Made by a program: the position numbers and the translations under genes
Notes under the pieces: generated by a model
Database searches by the model: none
Told to the model about the DNA's origin: nothing
What the model saw: only the letters and a program-made list of their open reading frames with translations
Origin: Thermoplasmata archaeon
GTDB lineage: Archaea; Thermoplasmatota; DTKX01; VGTL01
NCBI GenBank assembly: GCA_038851035.1
Contig: JAWCLH010000009.1
Location: 1-64,000, forward strand
DNA length: 64,000 nt
Direction: 5' to 3'
Shown: positions 8,290 through 25,898 of the stretch, one piece after another
Layout: the number at the start of each line of letters is the position of its first letter
Numbering within the stretch: position 1 is the first letter of the stretch

Positions 8290-9099
8290 TCAGGCCCCAA
8301 TCCAGACTGTGCCGACGATTTTCCGAATCGCGCTGACCGCGGAGAGCGCAGCCAGATAACTCGTCCGAGGGTTCTGGGGGGAGGGGACGTTCCGCACCTC
8401 AGTCTCGAGCACCCCGAACTCGCCCTTCAGCAGAATCTTGTGGATGTTTCTTGTTGCGGCCGGGTCGGCGATTATGCGCACCCTTGTTTTTTTGAAACCG
8501 ACCCCGGCGAGGCTGAGCGTAGCCGCTACGTTGATGTTCTGAGGGAAGTGCACCACCGCATCCTCGGCCGTGCCCTCGTATATCACCGTGGCCTTCTTAA
8601 TTCCATCTAGGTCAATTTTTCTATCGACTACGTACTGGTTGTTCCTGAACGCGTTGGGGTGCTTTATCGTGACGAGCGTCGCCCTCTCAACCCGGGCCGC
8701 TGAGCCTGCCGAGACCCCATCGATGCCCGCGACCGCTCCGGAGGGAATGTAGATCTTGCGGTGGCGGGCCTTCGCCAGCCTCTCGATTCTCCTCCTAAAT
8801 ACTGGGTCGACCAGCGCCCCAACGCTCATTATGACCACGCTCTTGCCCTTCTCGAGCGCCATTGGGACATACTCCTTGACCGCCTGCTGGGAGGCGGCCT
8901 CGATGACGAGGTCGGACCTCTCGATTATCTCCTCGATATCATTAAGCACCCTGCCCTTTTTCAAGCTGCGCGCGAGGTGGTTCTTGAGTCTGCGCGAGCG
9001 GTCATAGAGATATATCGCCTCGACCTCGGGGATATCTTCGACCCTCTGGGCGATTGTCGAGCCGATTGCGCCGCACCCGATGAGGGCGAGCCGGACCAT
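8290..9099 (-). CDS. nadX: L-aspartate dehydrogenase
   Basis: 269 aa. It oxidises L-aspartate to iminoaspartate with NAD(P)+, the first step of NAD biosynthesis in organisms that lack the oxidase NadB. Evidence: the N-terminal Rossmann motif GCGAIGSTIAQ, the conserved PSGAVAGIDGVSAG block, and the KHPNAFRNN segment typical of the family; the length is normal. It is divergent from birA, with about 190 bases between the two starts. Start ATG 9099 lies about 25 bases from a TATA-like element, so the message is probably leaderless. Other members of this superfamily, such as homoserine dehydrogenase, do not carry the SGA-GID block, so the call is firm. Confidence 0.88.
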   Translation of the reverse strand: MVRLALIGCGAIGSTIAQRVEDIPEVEAIYLYDRSRRLKNHLARSLKKGRVLNDIEEIIERSDLVIEAASQQAVKEYVPMALEKGKSVVIMSVGALVDPVFRRRIERLAKARHRKIYIPSGAVAGIDGVSAGSAARVERATLVTIKHPNAFRNNQYVVDRKIDLDGIKKATVIYEGTAEDAVVHFPQNINVAATLSLAGVGFKKTRVRIIADPAATRNIHKILLKGEFGVLETEVRNVPSPQNPRTSYLAALSAVSAIRKIVGTVWIGA

Positions 9100-9118
9100 G
9101 GTCGCGCTATCCCACTGG

Positions 9119-9129
9119 GAATATAAAAT
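9119..9129 (-). promoter_or_regulatory. TATA box of nadX
   Basis: On the minus strand the sequence reads cattttatatt, centred about 25 bases upstream of the ATG at 9099. This suits a leaderless nadX transcript. Confidence 0.5.
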
Positions 9130-9292
9130 GTTTGGCGCCTGCGGGAGGGGGTTTCGTAGGGCGGCGCGATCTCAGGGGGCCCCGGAGGTGGCCGGGGCAA
9201 TCGCACCTCTCGATAGCGGGGGGCGCCAGGGGCCACCGTACGCGGACACCGCGTATTTAATTATCCCCCCGCCCATCCCCCCACCTGCCGGG

Positions 9293-10042
9293 GTGAGCAG
9301 AGCGGAGCCAAGAACGAGAATTCTGAGGTTCGACTCCCTTGAGTCAACGAACAAGAAAGCGCGGGAACTCGCGGAGGCCGGGGAGCCCGAGGGCACCGTG
9401 GTGGTGGCGCGAACCCAGACCGGGGGCCGGGGACGCTTGGGGCGCGCCTGGGTCTCGCCGCCGGGGGGCCTATGGTTCTCTGTGGTTCTTAAACCACGGG
9501 TTCCCCCCGCTCAAGTCCCGGTGCTCGGCCTGCTGACAGGGGTCGCGGTCGCGAGGGCGCTTAAGGGGCTCTACAGGCTGGAGTCCCGCCTCAAATGGCC
9601 CAACGACGTTCTAATTCAAGGAAAGAAGGTCTGCGGGGTCCTGACCGAACTCTCCGTCCGCGGAGAGATATTGGATCATGTCATTGTCGGCGTCGGGATC
9701 AACGCCTCCTTCCCCTTAGCCCTCCTCCCCAGTGAGCTCTGGACCCGCGCAACAACGATTCAGGAGTTGCTCGGTCGAACTATCGAGCTCGAGCCCCTGC
9801 TATACAGGGTTGTTGAGGAGCTGGACAAAAGGTATCTGGAATTCGTAGGAGGGAAAACGGGAGGCATTCTGGAAGAGTGGCGCGCCCTCTCGGAGACTCT
9901 GGGTAGGAAGGTACGTGTCGATACGCTCGAAGAGGTAGTCGAGGGGCTGGCGGAGGAAATAGACGCGAGCGGCGCGCTCTTGATAAGGACGGCGAAGGGC
10001 CCAGTGAGGGTTATCGCTGGGGACTGCGTGCATCTTGAGTAA
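9293..10042 (+). CDS. birA: Biotin--protein ligase, no HTH domain
   Basis: 249 aa from GTG 9293. It activates biotin with ATP and attaches it to the carrier lysine of its target, here almost certainly PycB encoded nearby. Evidence: STNKKARELAEAG, the biotinyl-AMP loop GRGRLGRAWVSPPGG, KWPNDVLIQGKKVCG, and GVGINA. The length covers the catalytic and small C-terminal domains, with no DNA-binding domain, so it is a dedicated ligase. An ORF frame extends upstream to 9080, but that would overlap nadX. The GTG lies about 35 bases after a TATA-like gtatttaatta (9252-9262) and directly precedes the conserved start of the fold. Confidence 0.92.
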   Translation: MSRAEPRTRILRFDSLESTNKKARELAEAGEPEGTVVVARTQTGGRGRLGRAWVSPPGGLWFSVVLKPRVPPAQVPVLGLLTGVAVARALKGLYRLESRLKWPNDVLIQGKKVCGVLTELSVRGEILDHVIVGVGINASFPLALLPSELWTRATTIQELLGRTIELEPLLYRVVEELDKRYLEFVGGKTGGILEEWRALSETLGRKVRVDTLEEVVEGLAEEIDASGALLIRTAKGPVRVIAGDCVHLE

Positions 10043-20937: not shown

Positions 20938-21015
20938 TGGTAGCGGGGAGTAGATTTGAACTACTGATCTACGGGTTATGAGCCCGTCGGGATTTCCTGG
21001 CTACCCTACCCCGCT
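20938..21015 (-). tRNA. Initiator tRNA-Met (CAT)
   Basis: Read on the minus strand the gene begins AGCGGGGTAGGGTAGCC. Its anticodon arm is CGGGCTCATAACCCG, with three G:C pairs next to the loop, the hallmark of initiator tRNA. The T-arm contains AGTTCAAATCT. The acceptor pairs AGCGGGG with CCCCGCT, giving the A1:U72 pair of archaeal initiators. The discriminator A at 20941 is followed by an encoded CCA (20940-20938). No intron is seen. Confidence 0.93.
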
Positions 21016-21086
21016 ATTCAGACAGACCCTTATAACACGCTCCGGGATAAAAGGATTGCTGATGGACGGAGCCGGTGATTGAGTAG

Positions 21087-21106
21087 GGGTTATGAGCCCG
21101 TCGGGA
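21087..21106 (-). repeat. 20-bp copy of the tRNA-Met anticodon region
   Basis: The 20 bases gggttatgagcccgtcggga occur both inside the tRNA gene (20973-20992) and here, 114 bases away, on its 5' side. The copy lacks the acceptor and T arms, so it is not a second tRNA. It could be the trace of a partial duplication or of an integration event using the tRNA as target. Confidence 0.6.
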
Positions 21107-21168
21107 CATTGGTCTGATAGAAATTTAATAATAACCGTACGCCGTTCGAGGCTGGCGGAGGGAGCGAT

Positions 21169-22146
21169 GTGGCGAGCGGGATCGGGTATGGTAAAGTAAT
21201 TCTGTTCGGAGAGCACTTCGTAGTGTACGGCCTTCCGGCCATCGCTTCGGCGATATCCGACACCACAGTGGCCGAGGCCACGCTCGCGCGAGGAGCCGGC
21301 GGCCTCGAGGCGGGACCCGAGACCTTCGTTCTCGAGGGCGACGGCTGGACGCTCTACGACAACAGGCCCGAGACGCCTGGGTACAAAAAGGAGAAGGCGG
21401 CCGAGCAGAGGAGGGCGGTGGAGCTGATTCTCTCCCACCTCGGAATAGACACCAGAAAGAACCCCGTGAATCTCGCGCTCGGTGGAGCCCTAAAGGCCGC
21501 CAGCGGCGTTGGTGCTTCGGCCGCCGCCTGCGCAGCCATCGCGCGCGCCCTCTCCTCCCTTTTCGATCTAGGCCTCACCGATGAGGAAATCAACCGGGCG
21601 GCCCATGAGGGAGAGAAGGGCTTTCACGGCACGCCCTCCGGAATCGACGACACCGCTGCCACATACGGGGGCCTCTTCCTCTTTAAGAAGGAGCAACCGA
21701 CCAACCATATCGAAATGATTCGCCTCAGGAGGCCTCTTGAAATCGTGCTCGGGAACACGGGCATCACTTCGAGCACAAAGGCCGTGGTCGAGGAGGTCAG
21801 GAGGAGGCGAGAGGCCGCGCCGGAGAAATTCTCCAGAATATTCAGCGAGGCCGAGGCCCTCGCTCTCGAGGCAAAAGAGGCCCTAGAGAGAGGAGACGTC
21901 GGGAGGGTCGGGACGCTGATGACGCGCAACCACGAGCTCCTGAGGGAGCTCGGGGTTTCATGCGAGGAGCTAGAGAGGCTTGTGGAGCTTGCAATTCGGG
22001 CGGGCGCTCCGGGGGCCAAACTGACCGGAACCGGAAGGGGAGGCCTCATGGTCGCTCTCACGCCGGGCGTGGACCTGCAGGAGAGGGTGGCCAGAGCCAT
22101 CGAGAATGCCGGGTTCACGGCGCTCAGGACTAGAATCGGGTGCTGA
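21169..22146 (+). CDS. mvk: Mevalonate kinase (GHMP family)
   Basis: 325 aa. It phosphorylates mevalonate to 5-phosphomevalonate, the entry to the operon's pathway. Evidence: GKVILFGEHFVVYG at residues 8-21, the glycine-rich ATP loop as KAASGVGASAAACAA, HGTPSGIDDTAATYGGLF, and the C-terminal GAKLTGTGRGGLMVAL. The ATP loop lacks the PxGxGLGSS form common in methanogen enzymes and looks more like the GIGASA variant seen in protist and some bacterial kinases. Start GTG 21169; a TATA-like aaatttaataata (21121-21133) lies upstream. It ends 12 bases before the UbiD-family gene. Confidence 0.9.
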   Translation: MASGIGYGKVILFGEHFVVYGLPAIASAISDTTVAEATLARGAGGLEAGPETFVLEGDGWTLYDNRPETPGYKKEKAAEQRRAVELILSHLGIDTRKNPVNLALGGALKAASGVGASAAACAAIARALSSLFDLGLTDEEINRAAHEGEKGFHGTPSGIDDTAATYGGLFLFKKEQPTNHIEMIRLRRPLEIVLGNTGITSSTKAVVEEVRRRREAAPEKFSRIFSEAEALALEAKEALERGDVGRVGTLMTRNHELLRELGVSCEELERLVELAIRAGAPGAKLTGTGRGGLMVALTPGVDLQERVARAIENAGFTALRTRIGC

Positions 22147-22158
22147 GGAGGGTTGGAA

Positions 22159-23469
22159 ATGGAGCTGAGGGAGTTTCTGAAACTGCTCGAAAGTAAGGGA
22201 ATGCTTACGCGGATAAAGAGGGAGGTCGACACGGTCTACGAAGCCGCGACATTGATAAAAATGCTCGATGGAAGGCCGCTCTATTTCGAGAGAGTGAAAG
22301 GACACAAGATGCCAGTGGTCTCGAACATCTGCGCCACGAGAGAGCTGGTCTGTTTGGGGCTCGGGATCCGGCGCGAGGAGCTGATAACGCGGCTGGCGGA
22401 GGCGATAGACCATCCAAAGCCCCCCGCGGTCGAGAACACGACCGACTACACGGACATCGGGACAGACCTCACCCGCCTCCCGATTCTGACCTACTATCCT
22501 TTCGACGGCGGGCCCTACATCGCCTCTGGCATCGCGATTGCACGCGACCCGGAGTACGGCCTAAACGCATCCTACCATAGGGCAATGATGTTCAGGGAAA
22601 ACGGGGAGCTGGTAAAGGACAAACTCGTTCTGAGAATTCTGCAGAGGGATTTCGACGCCTATATTAAAAGGGGGCTGAGGGAGTTCGCCTTCTGCATAGG
22701 CAACTCCATTCCGGTGCTCGTGGGCGCAGCGATATCGGCGCCGATAAATGTCGACGAGATGGCGATCGCGAACGCCCTCTCCGAGACGAGGCTCTACCGC
22801 GTGGGCGGGCACACGGTCCCCGGCTCAGAGATAGTCATTATAATGGAGTTCACGGGCGAGATGCACGACGAGGGCCCGTTCGTTGACCTGACGGAGACCG
22901 TGGACATTGTCAGAAAACAGAGGGTCGCAAGAGTGAGGCACATATTCGTCAGGAAGGACCCCATATTCCATGCGCTCCTGCCCGGAGGGCTGGAGCACAA
23001 GGTGCTGATGGGAATGCCCAGGGAGCCGACGATCTACCGTGAGGTTGCGAAGGTCTGTGAGGTGAAGGACGTGCTCATCACGCCCGGTGGAGCTTCATGG
23101 CTCCATGGGGTTGTGTCTATTCACAAGAAGAATCCTGATGACGGAATGAAGGCAATAGACGCCGCGTTCAGGGGCCATAGGTCGATGAAGCACGTCTTCA
23201 TCGTGGATGACGATATCGACATCCACAACCCTCACGATGTCGAGTGGGCAATGGCGACGCGCTTCCAGGGCAAGAAGGGAATCAAGATGTTCGAGGATAA
23301 GGGCTCGTCCCTCGACCCATCCTCAGACATGGAGACCCAGATGACGACCAAGATAGGGTTTGACATGACGATACCGAGCGAGGACCCGTCGAAAAAGGGC
23401 CCGCGGAAGGAATTCAGAAGGCCCCCGCTGCCGATGAAGCTGAGGCTAGAGGACTATCTGGAGGGTTGA
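22159..23469 (+). CDS. UbiD-family decarboxylase, probable trans-anhydromevalonate 5-phosphate decarboxylase
   Basis: 436 aa from ATG 22159, preceded by gaggaggg. The UbiD family decarboxylates with prenylated FMN. Evidence: ELREFLKLLESKGML at the start, DIGTDLTRLPILTYYPFDGG, GNSIPVLVGAAISAP, the DEGPFVDLTETVD block, DVLITPGGASWLHG, and HVFIVDDDIDIHNPHDVEWA. The length matches the short archaeal forms rather than 490-aa UbiD. Because it lies between mevalonate kinase and both aconitase-X subunits, it is best assigned to the archaeal mevalonate pathway, making isopentenyl phosphate. The UbiX-like flavin prenyltransferase it needs is not in the window. Confidence 0.87.
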   Translation: MELREFLKLLESKGMLTRIKREVDTVYEAATLIKMLDGRPLYFERVKGHKMPVVSNICATRELVCLGLGIRREELITRLAEAIDHPKPPAVENTTDYTDIGTDLTRLPILTYYPFDGGPYIASGIAIARDPEYGLNASYHRAMMFRENGELVKDKLVLRILQRDFDAYIKRGLREFAFCIGNSIPVLVGAAISAPINVDEMAIANALSETRLYRVGGHTVPGSEIVIIMEFTGEMHDEGPFVDLTETVDIVRKQRVARVRHIFVRKDPIFHALLPGGLEHKVLMGMPREPTIYREVAKVCEVKDVLITPGGASWLHGVVSIHKKNPDDGMKAIDAAFRGHRSMKHVFIVDDDIDIHNPHDVEWAMATRFQGKKGIKMFEDKGSSLDPSSDMETQMTTKIGFDMTIPSEDPSKKGPRKEFRRPPLPMKLRLEDYLEG

Positions 23470-23497
23470 GGCGCGGGGGCGATAAGGAGGTGGGTGT

Positions 23498-24685
23498 GTG
23501 CAGCTTACCAAAGAAGAAGAGGCTGTTCTGAGGGGAGAGAGGGGCGAGGTCCCCCAGCGATGCCTGCGCCTGCTGGTCAGGCTCGGAGAGATATACGGAG
23601 CCGAGAGAATGATTCCTGTCGGGTCCGTTCAAGTCGCTGGGGTGTCCTACAAGTCTATTGGAGACCCTGGGAGGGACTTCCTCGAGGACTACGCGAGGCT
23701 GGGGGCGAGGGTCGTGGTGCCCACTTTCCTCAACCCGGCGGGAATGGACATTGAGCAGTGGCGGGAGCTGGGTTTCCCGCCCGCGTTCGCCGAGCAGCAG
23801 CTCAGAATCATGCGGGCATTCGAGTCAATGGGTATCGTGACGAGCGCTTCCTGCACGCCCTACCTCATCGGCATGCTCCCTCGGTTCGGCGAGCACATCG
23901 CCTGGTCGGAGTCATCGGCGGTTTCGTTCGCCAACTCCGTGATCGGCGCCCGGACCAATCGCGAGGGGGGACCCTCGGCCCTCGCGGCGGCGATATGTGG
24001 GGTCACGCCGGACTACGGCCTCCACCGCGAGGAGAACCGACAACCGCACTACCATGTGAGGGTCAGCGCGGAGCTGAGAACAGGCTCGGACTTTGGGGCG
24101 CTGGGCTGCTATGTCGGTAAAATCGTTAAGGACAGAATTCCATTCTTCACGGGGATTAAGTGGGCCGGCGTGGACGAGCTAAAGGCGCTCGGAGCTGCCA
24201 TGGCGGCATCAGGCGCTGTGGCGCTCTACCATGTCGAGGGGATGACGCCAGAGGCCGGTGCGGTGAGGAGGGAGGGCTTGGAGGCCATCGACTTCGGCGA
24301 GAGAGAGCTCAGGGATACCTATGCGAAACTCGGCCCCTCGAAAGAGCCCGACCTTGTGGTCGTGGGCTGCCCCCACGCCTCGCTCAAAGAAATCGCTGAG
24401 GTCGCCCGGCTCGTCAGCGGAAGGCGTCTCAAGAAGCCGCTCTGGGTCTGCACTTCCCGGCTGATGAGGAGTGCCGCCGAGAGAATTGGCTATGTCTCGA
24501 CCATCGAGAAGGCTGGGGGAAAGGTCGTCGCTGACACTTGCATGGTCGTGGCGCCCATTGAGGAGATGGGCTTCAGAGTGACTGGGGTCTGCTCCGGAAA
24601 GGCTGCGACCTATCTCCCCGGCCACTGCAAGCAGGCCGTGATGTTCGGGACGCTGGAAGAGCTCGTCGAGGCGGCGATGAAGTGA
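23498..24685 (+). CDS. Aconitase-X large subunit, probable phosphomevalonate dehydratase
   Basis: 395 aa from GTG 23498 with ggaggtg before it. The AcnX catalytic subunit (DUF521) in archaeal mevalonate operons dehydrates 5-phosphomevalonate to trans-anhydromevalonate 5-phosphate using an Fe-S cluster. Evidence: MIPVGSVQVAGVSYKSIGD, SASCTPYLIGMLP, WSESSAVSFANSVIGARTNR, and EGMTPEA. Cys119, Cys348 (DTCMVVAP) and Cys365 (GVCSGK) are candidate cluster ligands. The small DUF126 subunit is two genes downstream, so the usually adjacent pair is split here by a HAD gene. The TGA is overlapped by the HAD start as GTGA. Confidence 0.9.
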   Translation: MQLTKEEEAVLRGERGEVPQRCLRLLVRLGEIYGAERMIPVGSVQVAGVSYKSIGDPGRDFLEDYARLGARVVVPTFLNPAGMDIEQWRELGFPPAFAEQQLRIMRAFESMGIVTSASCTPYLIGMLPRFGEHIAWSESSAVSFANSVIGARTNREGGPSALAAAICGVTPDYGLHREENRQPHYHVRVSAELRTGSDFGALGCYVGKIVKDRIPFFTGIKWAGVDELKALGAAMAASGAVALYHVEGMTPEAGAVRREGLEAIDFGERELRDTYAKLGPSKEPDLVVVGCPHASLKEIAEVARLVSGRRLKKPLWVCTSRLMRSAAERIGYVSTIEKAGGKVVADTCMVVAPIEEMGFRVTGVCSGKAATYLPGHCKQAVMFGTLEELVEAAMK

Positions 24686-25452
24686 TTCCAGACTGCAGCC
24701 GCGCGGGGAGGGCCGCCGCATTCTTTGACCTGGACGGCACGCTCATCAGGGGCCACATGATTCTCGACTTCCCCGACCATCTCCTCTCCGCCGGGCTTTT
24801 CGACCCGGAGATTCACAGGAAAATTAGGGAGATGAGGGAAGACCACCGCACGGGCAGGCTCCTGTACAGAAAGGTTGCGGAAGCGCTCCCCAGCCTCTAC
24901 GCGGAGGGGCTGAGGGGCCGGAGAGTGAGCGACGTGAAGCTAGTAGCAGAGAGCTTCGTGGCTGGGCGAATGAAGGAGGTGTACGACTACTCCATGCCCC
25001 TCGTTGCCCTGATGGCGGATAGCGGGAGGCCGGGAGTGGCCCTCAGCGGCTCGCCGGTGGAGACCGTCCTTCCGATGGCGCGCAGACTAGGCATGGAGGC
25101 GGCCTTCGGGACGGAGCTGGAGGTCGGGGGTGGCCGCTACACGGGCAGGGTCCTGAGGAACATGATTCTGGGCGAGACGAAGCGCCCCGTTTATGAACAA
25201 ATCGTTGAGCTGGACGGAATTGATGAGGCGAACTCCTTCGGGTTCGGGGACACTGAAGAGGATATCTCATTTCTCGAAAGGGTCGGGTGGCCCGTGGCCC
25301 TCAACCCCGCTCCCGGCCTCAGGGCGACAGCCTTAAGAAATGGCTGGACGATTCTCGCCCATGGAGAGGAGGTGGTGGCGAGGGTTGGAGAGCTCTTAAA
25401 GAGAGTAGAGGAGGGGCGCGAGGGAGCCGGGCTGAGCGGGGGAAGACTGTAG
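24682..25452 (+). CDS. HAD-superfamily (SerB-like, HAD-IB) phosphatase
   Basis: 256 aa. Motif I is FFDLDGTLIRGHM (nucleophile Asp16, acid Asp18), motif II is VALSGSPVETVLPMA, a lysine follows in ETKRPVYEQIVE, and motif IV is FGFGDTEEDISFL. The alpha-helical cap between motifs I and II has the HAD-IB size. It resembles phosphoserine phosphatase-type enzymes but the substrate cannot be read from sequence. It starts inside the stop of the large aconitase-X gene (GTGA) and lies 53 bases before the small subunit, so it is translated with the mevalonate enzymes. A role on a pathway phosphate ester is inference. Confidence 0.82.
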   Translation: MIPDCSRAGRAAAFFDLDGTLIRGHMILDFPDHLLSAGLFDPEIHRKIREMREDHRTGRLLYRKVAEALPSLYAEGLRGRRVSDVKLVAESFVAGRMKEVYDYSMPLVALMADSGRPGVALSGSPVETVLPMARRLGMEAAFGTELEVGGGRYTGRVLRNMILGETKRPVYEQIVELDGIDEANSFGFGDTEEDISFLERVGWPVALNPAPGLRATALRNGWTILAHGEEVVARVGELLKRVEEGREGAGLSGGRL

Positions 25453-25505
25453 CCGTCAACAATGGAGGTGGAGCTGTTACAGAAATAGAGCAAGGGGTGA
25501 GGGCA

Positions 25506-25898
25506 GTGGCGCGCTTTCAGGGGAGGACGATAAGTCCGGGAAAGGCCGAGGGGGAGGCACTAGTTTCGAAGGAGCCCATCGGCTTCTATGGGGGAGTGGA
25601 CCCGAAGACGGGGGTATTCATTGAGAAGGGGCACGAGCTCGAGGGGAAGAGCGTCAAAGGAAAAATTCTGGTATTCCCGAAGGGCAAGGGATCCACGGTT
25701 GGCTCATATGTCATCTATGGCCTGGCCGCCAACGGGGTCGCCCCCGCCGCAATTATTAACGCCGAGACGGAGACGATAGTAGCGACGGGCGTGATACTCG
25801 CGGGTCTGCCATGTGTCGACAGAGTACCGGTGGAGAACATAAGAACCGGTGACAGGGTCAGGGTAGACGCCGACACCGGAACGGTGGAGATTCTCTGA
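25506..25898 (+). CDS. Aconitase-X small subunit (DUF126), phosphomevalonate dehydratase
   Basis: 130 aa from GTG 25506 (GTG 25497 is also possible). It is the swivelling small subunit that completes the phosphomevalonate dehydratase active site with the large subunit. Evidence: FQGRTISPGKAEGEALVSK, PKTGVFIEKGHELEGKSVKG, FPKGKGSTVGSYVIYGLAAN, AETETIVATGVILAGLP and the C-terminal GDRVRVDADTGTVEI. All are typical and the length is normal. The open frame extends upstream into the HAD gene, but that part is low-complexity overlap and not part of the fold. It ends the operon. Confidence 0.92.
   Translation: MARFQGRTISPGKAEGEALVSKEPIGFYGGVDPKTGVFIEKGHELEGKSVKGKILVFPKGKGSTVGSYVIYGLAANGVAPAAIINAETETIVATGVILAGLPCVDRVPVENIRTGDRVRVDADTGTVEIL

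Follow-up and report, generated by a model that had tools for sequence, protein, structure and literature searches.

The question raised by this locus is whether a mevalonate kinase gene closely followed by genes for a UbiD-family decarboxylase and both AcnX subunits serves the archaeal mevalonate pathway, and what the gene lying between the two AcnX subunit genes does there. The analyzed stretch of 64,000 nucleotides (hereafter, the window) belongs to a genome of 2.69 Mb (G000; 50 contigs, 99.0% complete). From its sequence, the run at positions 21169–25898 is very probably an ordinary cluster for the modified, archaeal-type mevalonate pathway in a Thermoplasmatota-like archaeon, with the inserted HAD-IB phosphatase gene as a probable passenger.

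Five genes lie on the plus strand in the order mevalonate kinase, UbiD, AcnX large subunit, HAD-IB phosphatase, and AcnX small subunit, in keeping with the original prediction of a tight run of the kinase, UbiD, and AcnX genes. The mevalonate kinase gene (MVK; 21169–22146, GTG start, 325 aa) is followed by the genes for UbiD (22153–23469, TTG start, 438 aa), the AcnX large subunit (23498–24685, 395 aa), the HAD-IB phosphatase (24682–25452, GTG start), and the AcnX small (swivel) subunit (25506–25898, 130 aa when counted from the inferred GTG at 25506). Among the first four genes there are gaps of 6–28 nt and one overlap of 4 nt, between the HAD GTG start and the AcnX large subunit stop; the likely start of the AcnX small subunit gene follows 53 nt after the HAD stop. 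An A+T-rich, TATA-box-like stretch, AAATTTAATAATAA, was recognized by eye upstream of the first gene at 21121–21134 on the plus strand; as the sole obvious archaeal promoter candidate, it may be the single promoter of the run. A scan with promoter and terminator models of the bacterial type was uninformative. The upstream neighbor of the cluster, outside the pathway, is a tRNA-Met (CAT) gene found by ARAGORN at 20938–21015 on the minus strand. A 23-nt piece of its anticodon region (20970–20992) is repeated with 96% identity 114 nt away, at 21084–21106, between the tRNA and the mevalonate kinase gene, and could be an old integration scar.

The kinase matched TIGR00549 at 235 bits (cut-off 163). 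Its best PDB match, over the full length, was the mevalonate kinase 2hfs (E 7.5e-75), a protist enzyme; the mevalonate kinases ranking after it, 8teb (E 3e-34) and 6mde (E 1e-33), matched far more weakly. The UbiD-family protein contained PF20695, PF01977, and PF20696 and matched TIGR00148, a subfamily model that names no substrate, at 301 bits (cut-off 245). The depositors' name of its best PDB match, 6h6x (E 1.2e-68), likewise fixes no substrate. Since its PDB matches did not include an anhydromevalonate-phosphate decarboxylase, the assignment of this protein rests on gene context and family conservation; together with the presence of UbiX, these lead to its prediction as a trans-anhydromevalonate 5-phosphate decarboxylase. 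All of the 20 clustered UbiD sequences carried the motif EGPF(V/L)D with its conserved Asp (EGPFVD in the window), where many aromatic UbiDs have Glu.

The AcnX large subunit (PF04412, E 9e-158) was closest among solved structures to AcnX of Thermococcus kodakarensis (7cnr_A, E 1.9e-107), and its match to bacterial cis-3-hydroxyproline dehydratase was far weaker (E 4e-58). The small subunit, encoded by a separate gene, matched PF01989 and PRK03955 (184 bits, cut-off 163), and its 130-aa version aligned without gaps to 7cnr_B (E 4.9e-43) from residue 3 of the T. kodakarensis small subunit. Substrate-site and cluster residues were mapped from the list in PMC8184944. The cluster cysteines 110, 283, and 342 of T. 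kodakarensis correspond to Cys119, Cys291, and Cys348 of the large subunit in the window, where Glu138 and Lys368 are also conserved. Identical residues of the T. kodakarensis large subunit are A47, G48, V49, S50, N79, C110, E129, S130, S131, C283, C342, K361, and Y365, among them the phosphate-binding G48-V49-S50 (PMC8184944). The three cysteines and the glutamate were invariant in all 58 aligned large-subunit sequences. At two substrate contacts the T. kodakarensis residue is replaced, large-subunit Asn53 by Ser and small-subunit Leu27 by Tyr (alignment chain numbering of the small subunit is the paper numbering plus 1), and both new residues are the commonest ones among the relatives at these positions. 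The extra type I cysteine of the hydroxyproline enzyme (site C) was missing, with no Cys two residues after Cys348. Judged by these residues, and with the three conserved cysteines by which type IIb is defined (PMC10040528, PMC8184944), the AcnX pair is of type IIb, the phosphomevalonate-dehydratase kind. The comparison with characterized homologs thus favored the archaeal enzyme over hydroxyproline dehydratase, both in similarity and in the cysteine set.

Three enzymatic steps of the pathway are encoded in the run, and the earlier description of a nearly complete pathway in one cluster holds to this extent; it was overstated, since the genes for IPK, type 2 IDI, UbiX, and HMGR are located on other contigs. 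A genome-wide search found IPK (NF040647, 183 bits, cut-off 120) directly upstream of type 2 IDI (TIGR02151) on contig 36, UbiX (TIGR00421, 225 bits, cut-off 109) on contig 29, and HMGR on contig 7 (508 bits to the "degradative" class-II model TIGR00532). The remaining AA-kinase matches were carbamate kinase and UMP kinase. In a relative's locus, L058, a UbiX-like flavoprotein gene (8947–9588) follows the AcnX small subunit gene, and the cofactor enzyme seemingly belongs to the cluster there.

An alternative lower mevalonate pathway was also sought in the whole 99%-complete genome, but no diphosphomevalonate, phosphomevalonate, or mevalonate-3-kinase-type genes were found above cut-off, so that the reading as the archaeal route stands. 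The only GHMP kinases were MVK, pantoate kinase, and a heptose-kinase-like protein. Matches to PF22700 (MVD-like) were limited to MVK and the pantoate-kinase-like gene, both below cut-off, and the latter gene adjoins a CoaBC-like flavoprotein match. Two models for HMG-CoA synthase recovered no canonical enzyme from this 99%-complete assembly. The simplest reading is an assembly gap, which is likely because the sister genome G001 contains a canonical HMG-CoA synthase (530 bits) in addition to the same remote homolog as the genome of the window. This remote homolog, an HMG-CoA-synthase-like protein on contig C33 (L124), was rejected as canonical HMG-CoA synthase, since it scored 131 bits (cut-off 353) and is fused to a BbsA-like domain; its gene neighbors, named by eye, are FabG-like and MaoC-like.

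The arrangement was compared at 58 AcnX loci, comprising 46 from genomes of the window's phylum, 11 named loci, and the window itself. The order kinase-UbiD-AcnX on one strand was observed in 19 of the 58 loci, including one in a Bathyarchaeota MAG. Several of the named loci nearest to the window belong to Thermoplasmatota MAGs. A contig labeled Deltaproteobacteria (L099) carries an adjacent archaeal-type AcnX pair with 59% identity to that of the window and is probably misbinned. Mevalonate genes are usually clustered, and the route via AcnX and AMPD has been reported as dominant in archaea (PMC11052028). With the gene order recurring and the pathway so widespread, the cluster is not special. 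The use of the archaeal mevalonate route by this lineage is well supported and in itself unsurprising, and its only lineage-specific part is the gene between the AcnX subunits.

A different chemistry could be considered, in which UbiD and AcnX act in aromatic decarboxylation or hydroxyproline catabolism and cluster with MVK by accident. The substrate-neutral UbiD model would permit it, but the AcnX lacks the third type I cysteine and has the type IIb set, the same three kinds of genes are clustered in 19 of the 58 loci compared, and the cluster gene encodes the sole UbiD above cut-off in a genome where another lower pathway was not found; such an explanation is highly improbable. The proposed assignment of the kinase, phosphomevalonate dehydratase, and anhydromevalonate phosphate decarboxylase is therefore supported, the closest solved AcnX structure being that of the archaeal enzyme. 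In the archaeal mevalonate route, mevalonate kinase would convert mevalonate to mevalonate 5-phosphate, and the AcnX heterodimer, with an iron-sulfur cluster held by Cys119, Cys291, and Cys348 of the large subunit, would dehydrate it to trans-anhydromevalonate 5-phosphate. UbiD, using prenylated FMN made by the UbiX encoded outside the cluster, could then decarboxylate this compound to isopentenyl phosphate, and IPK and type 2 IDI would catalyze the remaining steps to IPP and DMAPP.

In most cases, the two genes for AcnX lie in tandem or near each other (PMC10040528), and the separation noted in the original prediction was borne out, the intervening gene being the HAD-IB phosphatase. Both AcnX parts were present in 51 of the 58 loci: they were adjacent in 46, fused in 3, and parted by a HAD gene in 2; as the loci are related, these counts are not independent. 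Taken up to where the conserved core begins, the gap in the 46 adjacent pairs was −7 to 114 nt, versus about 0.8–0.9 kb in the two HAD-parted pairs, those of the window and G001. The small subunit was not found in 7 of the 58 loci, one of which stops at a contig edge. The available flanks of L076, L077, L080, L082, L083, and L102 contained an AcnX large subunit without a recognizable small one. In L078, L079, and L085, a single frame encodes both parts, with the large one before the small one, the reverse of the bacterial hydroxyproline enzyme.

G001 is the only other examined genome of the window's family, and it has the HAD insertion too. The order DegT aminotransferase, MVK, UbiD, AcnX, HAD, AcnX is identical in both, and in G001 the HAD and AcnX small subunit frames overlap. 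The insertion was observed in no further genome among the 12 loci with the AcnX large subunit from the named scan. The split is genuine, lineage-specific, and minor, and its persistence indicates that AcnX subunit genes need not adjoin for the arrangement to last. In a quick tree of AcnX large subunits, which has some long branches, including that of the same-class sequence L041, the window and G001 fell among other families of the phylum, apart from the three genomes that share their class; a tree constrained to unite all five was rejected (AU p 0.0013). This suggests transfer or hidden paralogy of AcnX within the phylum.

The HAD protein matched TIGR01490, a model that names no substrate, at 109 bits (cut-off 98). 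The motifs DLDGT (the DxD nucleophile), SGS, K, and GDxxxD are intact in the window and in G001. A search of 116 relatives revealed a clear ortholog only in G001 (54% identity), other matches being weak. The single-sequence predicted structure was too poor for use (mean pLDDT 39.8). Most likely, this gene is a passenger, inserted between the AcnX subunit genes in the window's family and probably co-transcribed with them; the subunits would nonetheless be expected to be made together and to form the heterodimer.

It could instead encode a housekeeping phosphatase for phosphoserine or histidinol phosphate and have ended up in this operon. Matches to histidinol-phosphatase models (62 and 57 bits) and to the SerB model (38 bits), as well as SerB-like PDB matches, point that way, but the model scores fall well short of the curated cut-offs, and contig C47 encodes a better SerB-like candidate (94 bits, also below cut-off), which leaves this origin rather doubtful. 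A role in the mevalonate pathway is possible. The enzyme might dephosphorylate mevalonate 5-phosphate, anhydromevalonate phosphate, or isopentenyl phosphate and thereby set pool sizes, its position coupling its synthesis to that of the small subunit. Such a function would fit the retention of the insertion in two genera with all catalytic motifs preserved at 54% identity, and the frame overlap in G001. It is unlikely, however, as HAD-IB enzymes are widespread and act on many substrates, no homolog occurs near AcnX genes outside the window's family, operon neighbors are often functionally unrelated, and nothing fixes the substrate.

A phosphohydrolase of a different fold, Nudix (PF00293), is fused to the C-terminus of the AcnX small subunit in other families of the phylum (f18, f30, and f35). 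Six loci, L070, L071, L072, L073, L074, and L075, have this fusion, called by Pfam on two of them and by NCBIfam on the other four. Because HAD-IB occurs here and Nudix fusions occur in three other families, a phosphohydrolase has become associated with AcnX at least twice, which also speaks for a pathway role of the HAD protein. A search of the available literature turned up no report connecting AcnX with Nudix. That this pairing with phosphomevalonate dehydratase reflects an undescribed dephosphorylation or pyrophosphohydrolase step, regulating or proofreading the pool of phosphorylated mevalonate intermediates, is quite unlikely. The possible link is a small, testable lead.

Compared with the type IIb AcnX of T. 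kodakarensis (PDB 7CNR/7CNS), the predicted dehydratase has the same two subunits, three cysteines, Glu, Lys, and nearly all mevalonate-phosphate contacts, and it differs in the Ser and Tyr replacements described above and in the HAD gene parting the subunit genes. The MVK-UbiD-AcnX clusters of other Thermoplasmatota and of the Bathyarchaeota MAG (L052, L094, L095, L101, and others) have the same one-strand order as the window, but in L052, L094, L095, L101, and similar clusters the AcnX subunit genes are adjacent, usually overlapping, and without HAD. The Aeropyrum pernix-type modified mevalonate pathway (PMDh plus AMPD) likewise comprises MVK, the large and small AcnX subunits, UbiD with its UbiX partner, IPK, and IDI2, and in both cases a homolog of the decarboxylating kinase is absent. 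No difference in chemistry from that pathway is expected, and the window has the kinase, UbiD, and AcnX genes in one run.
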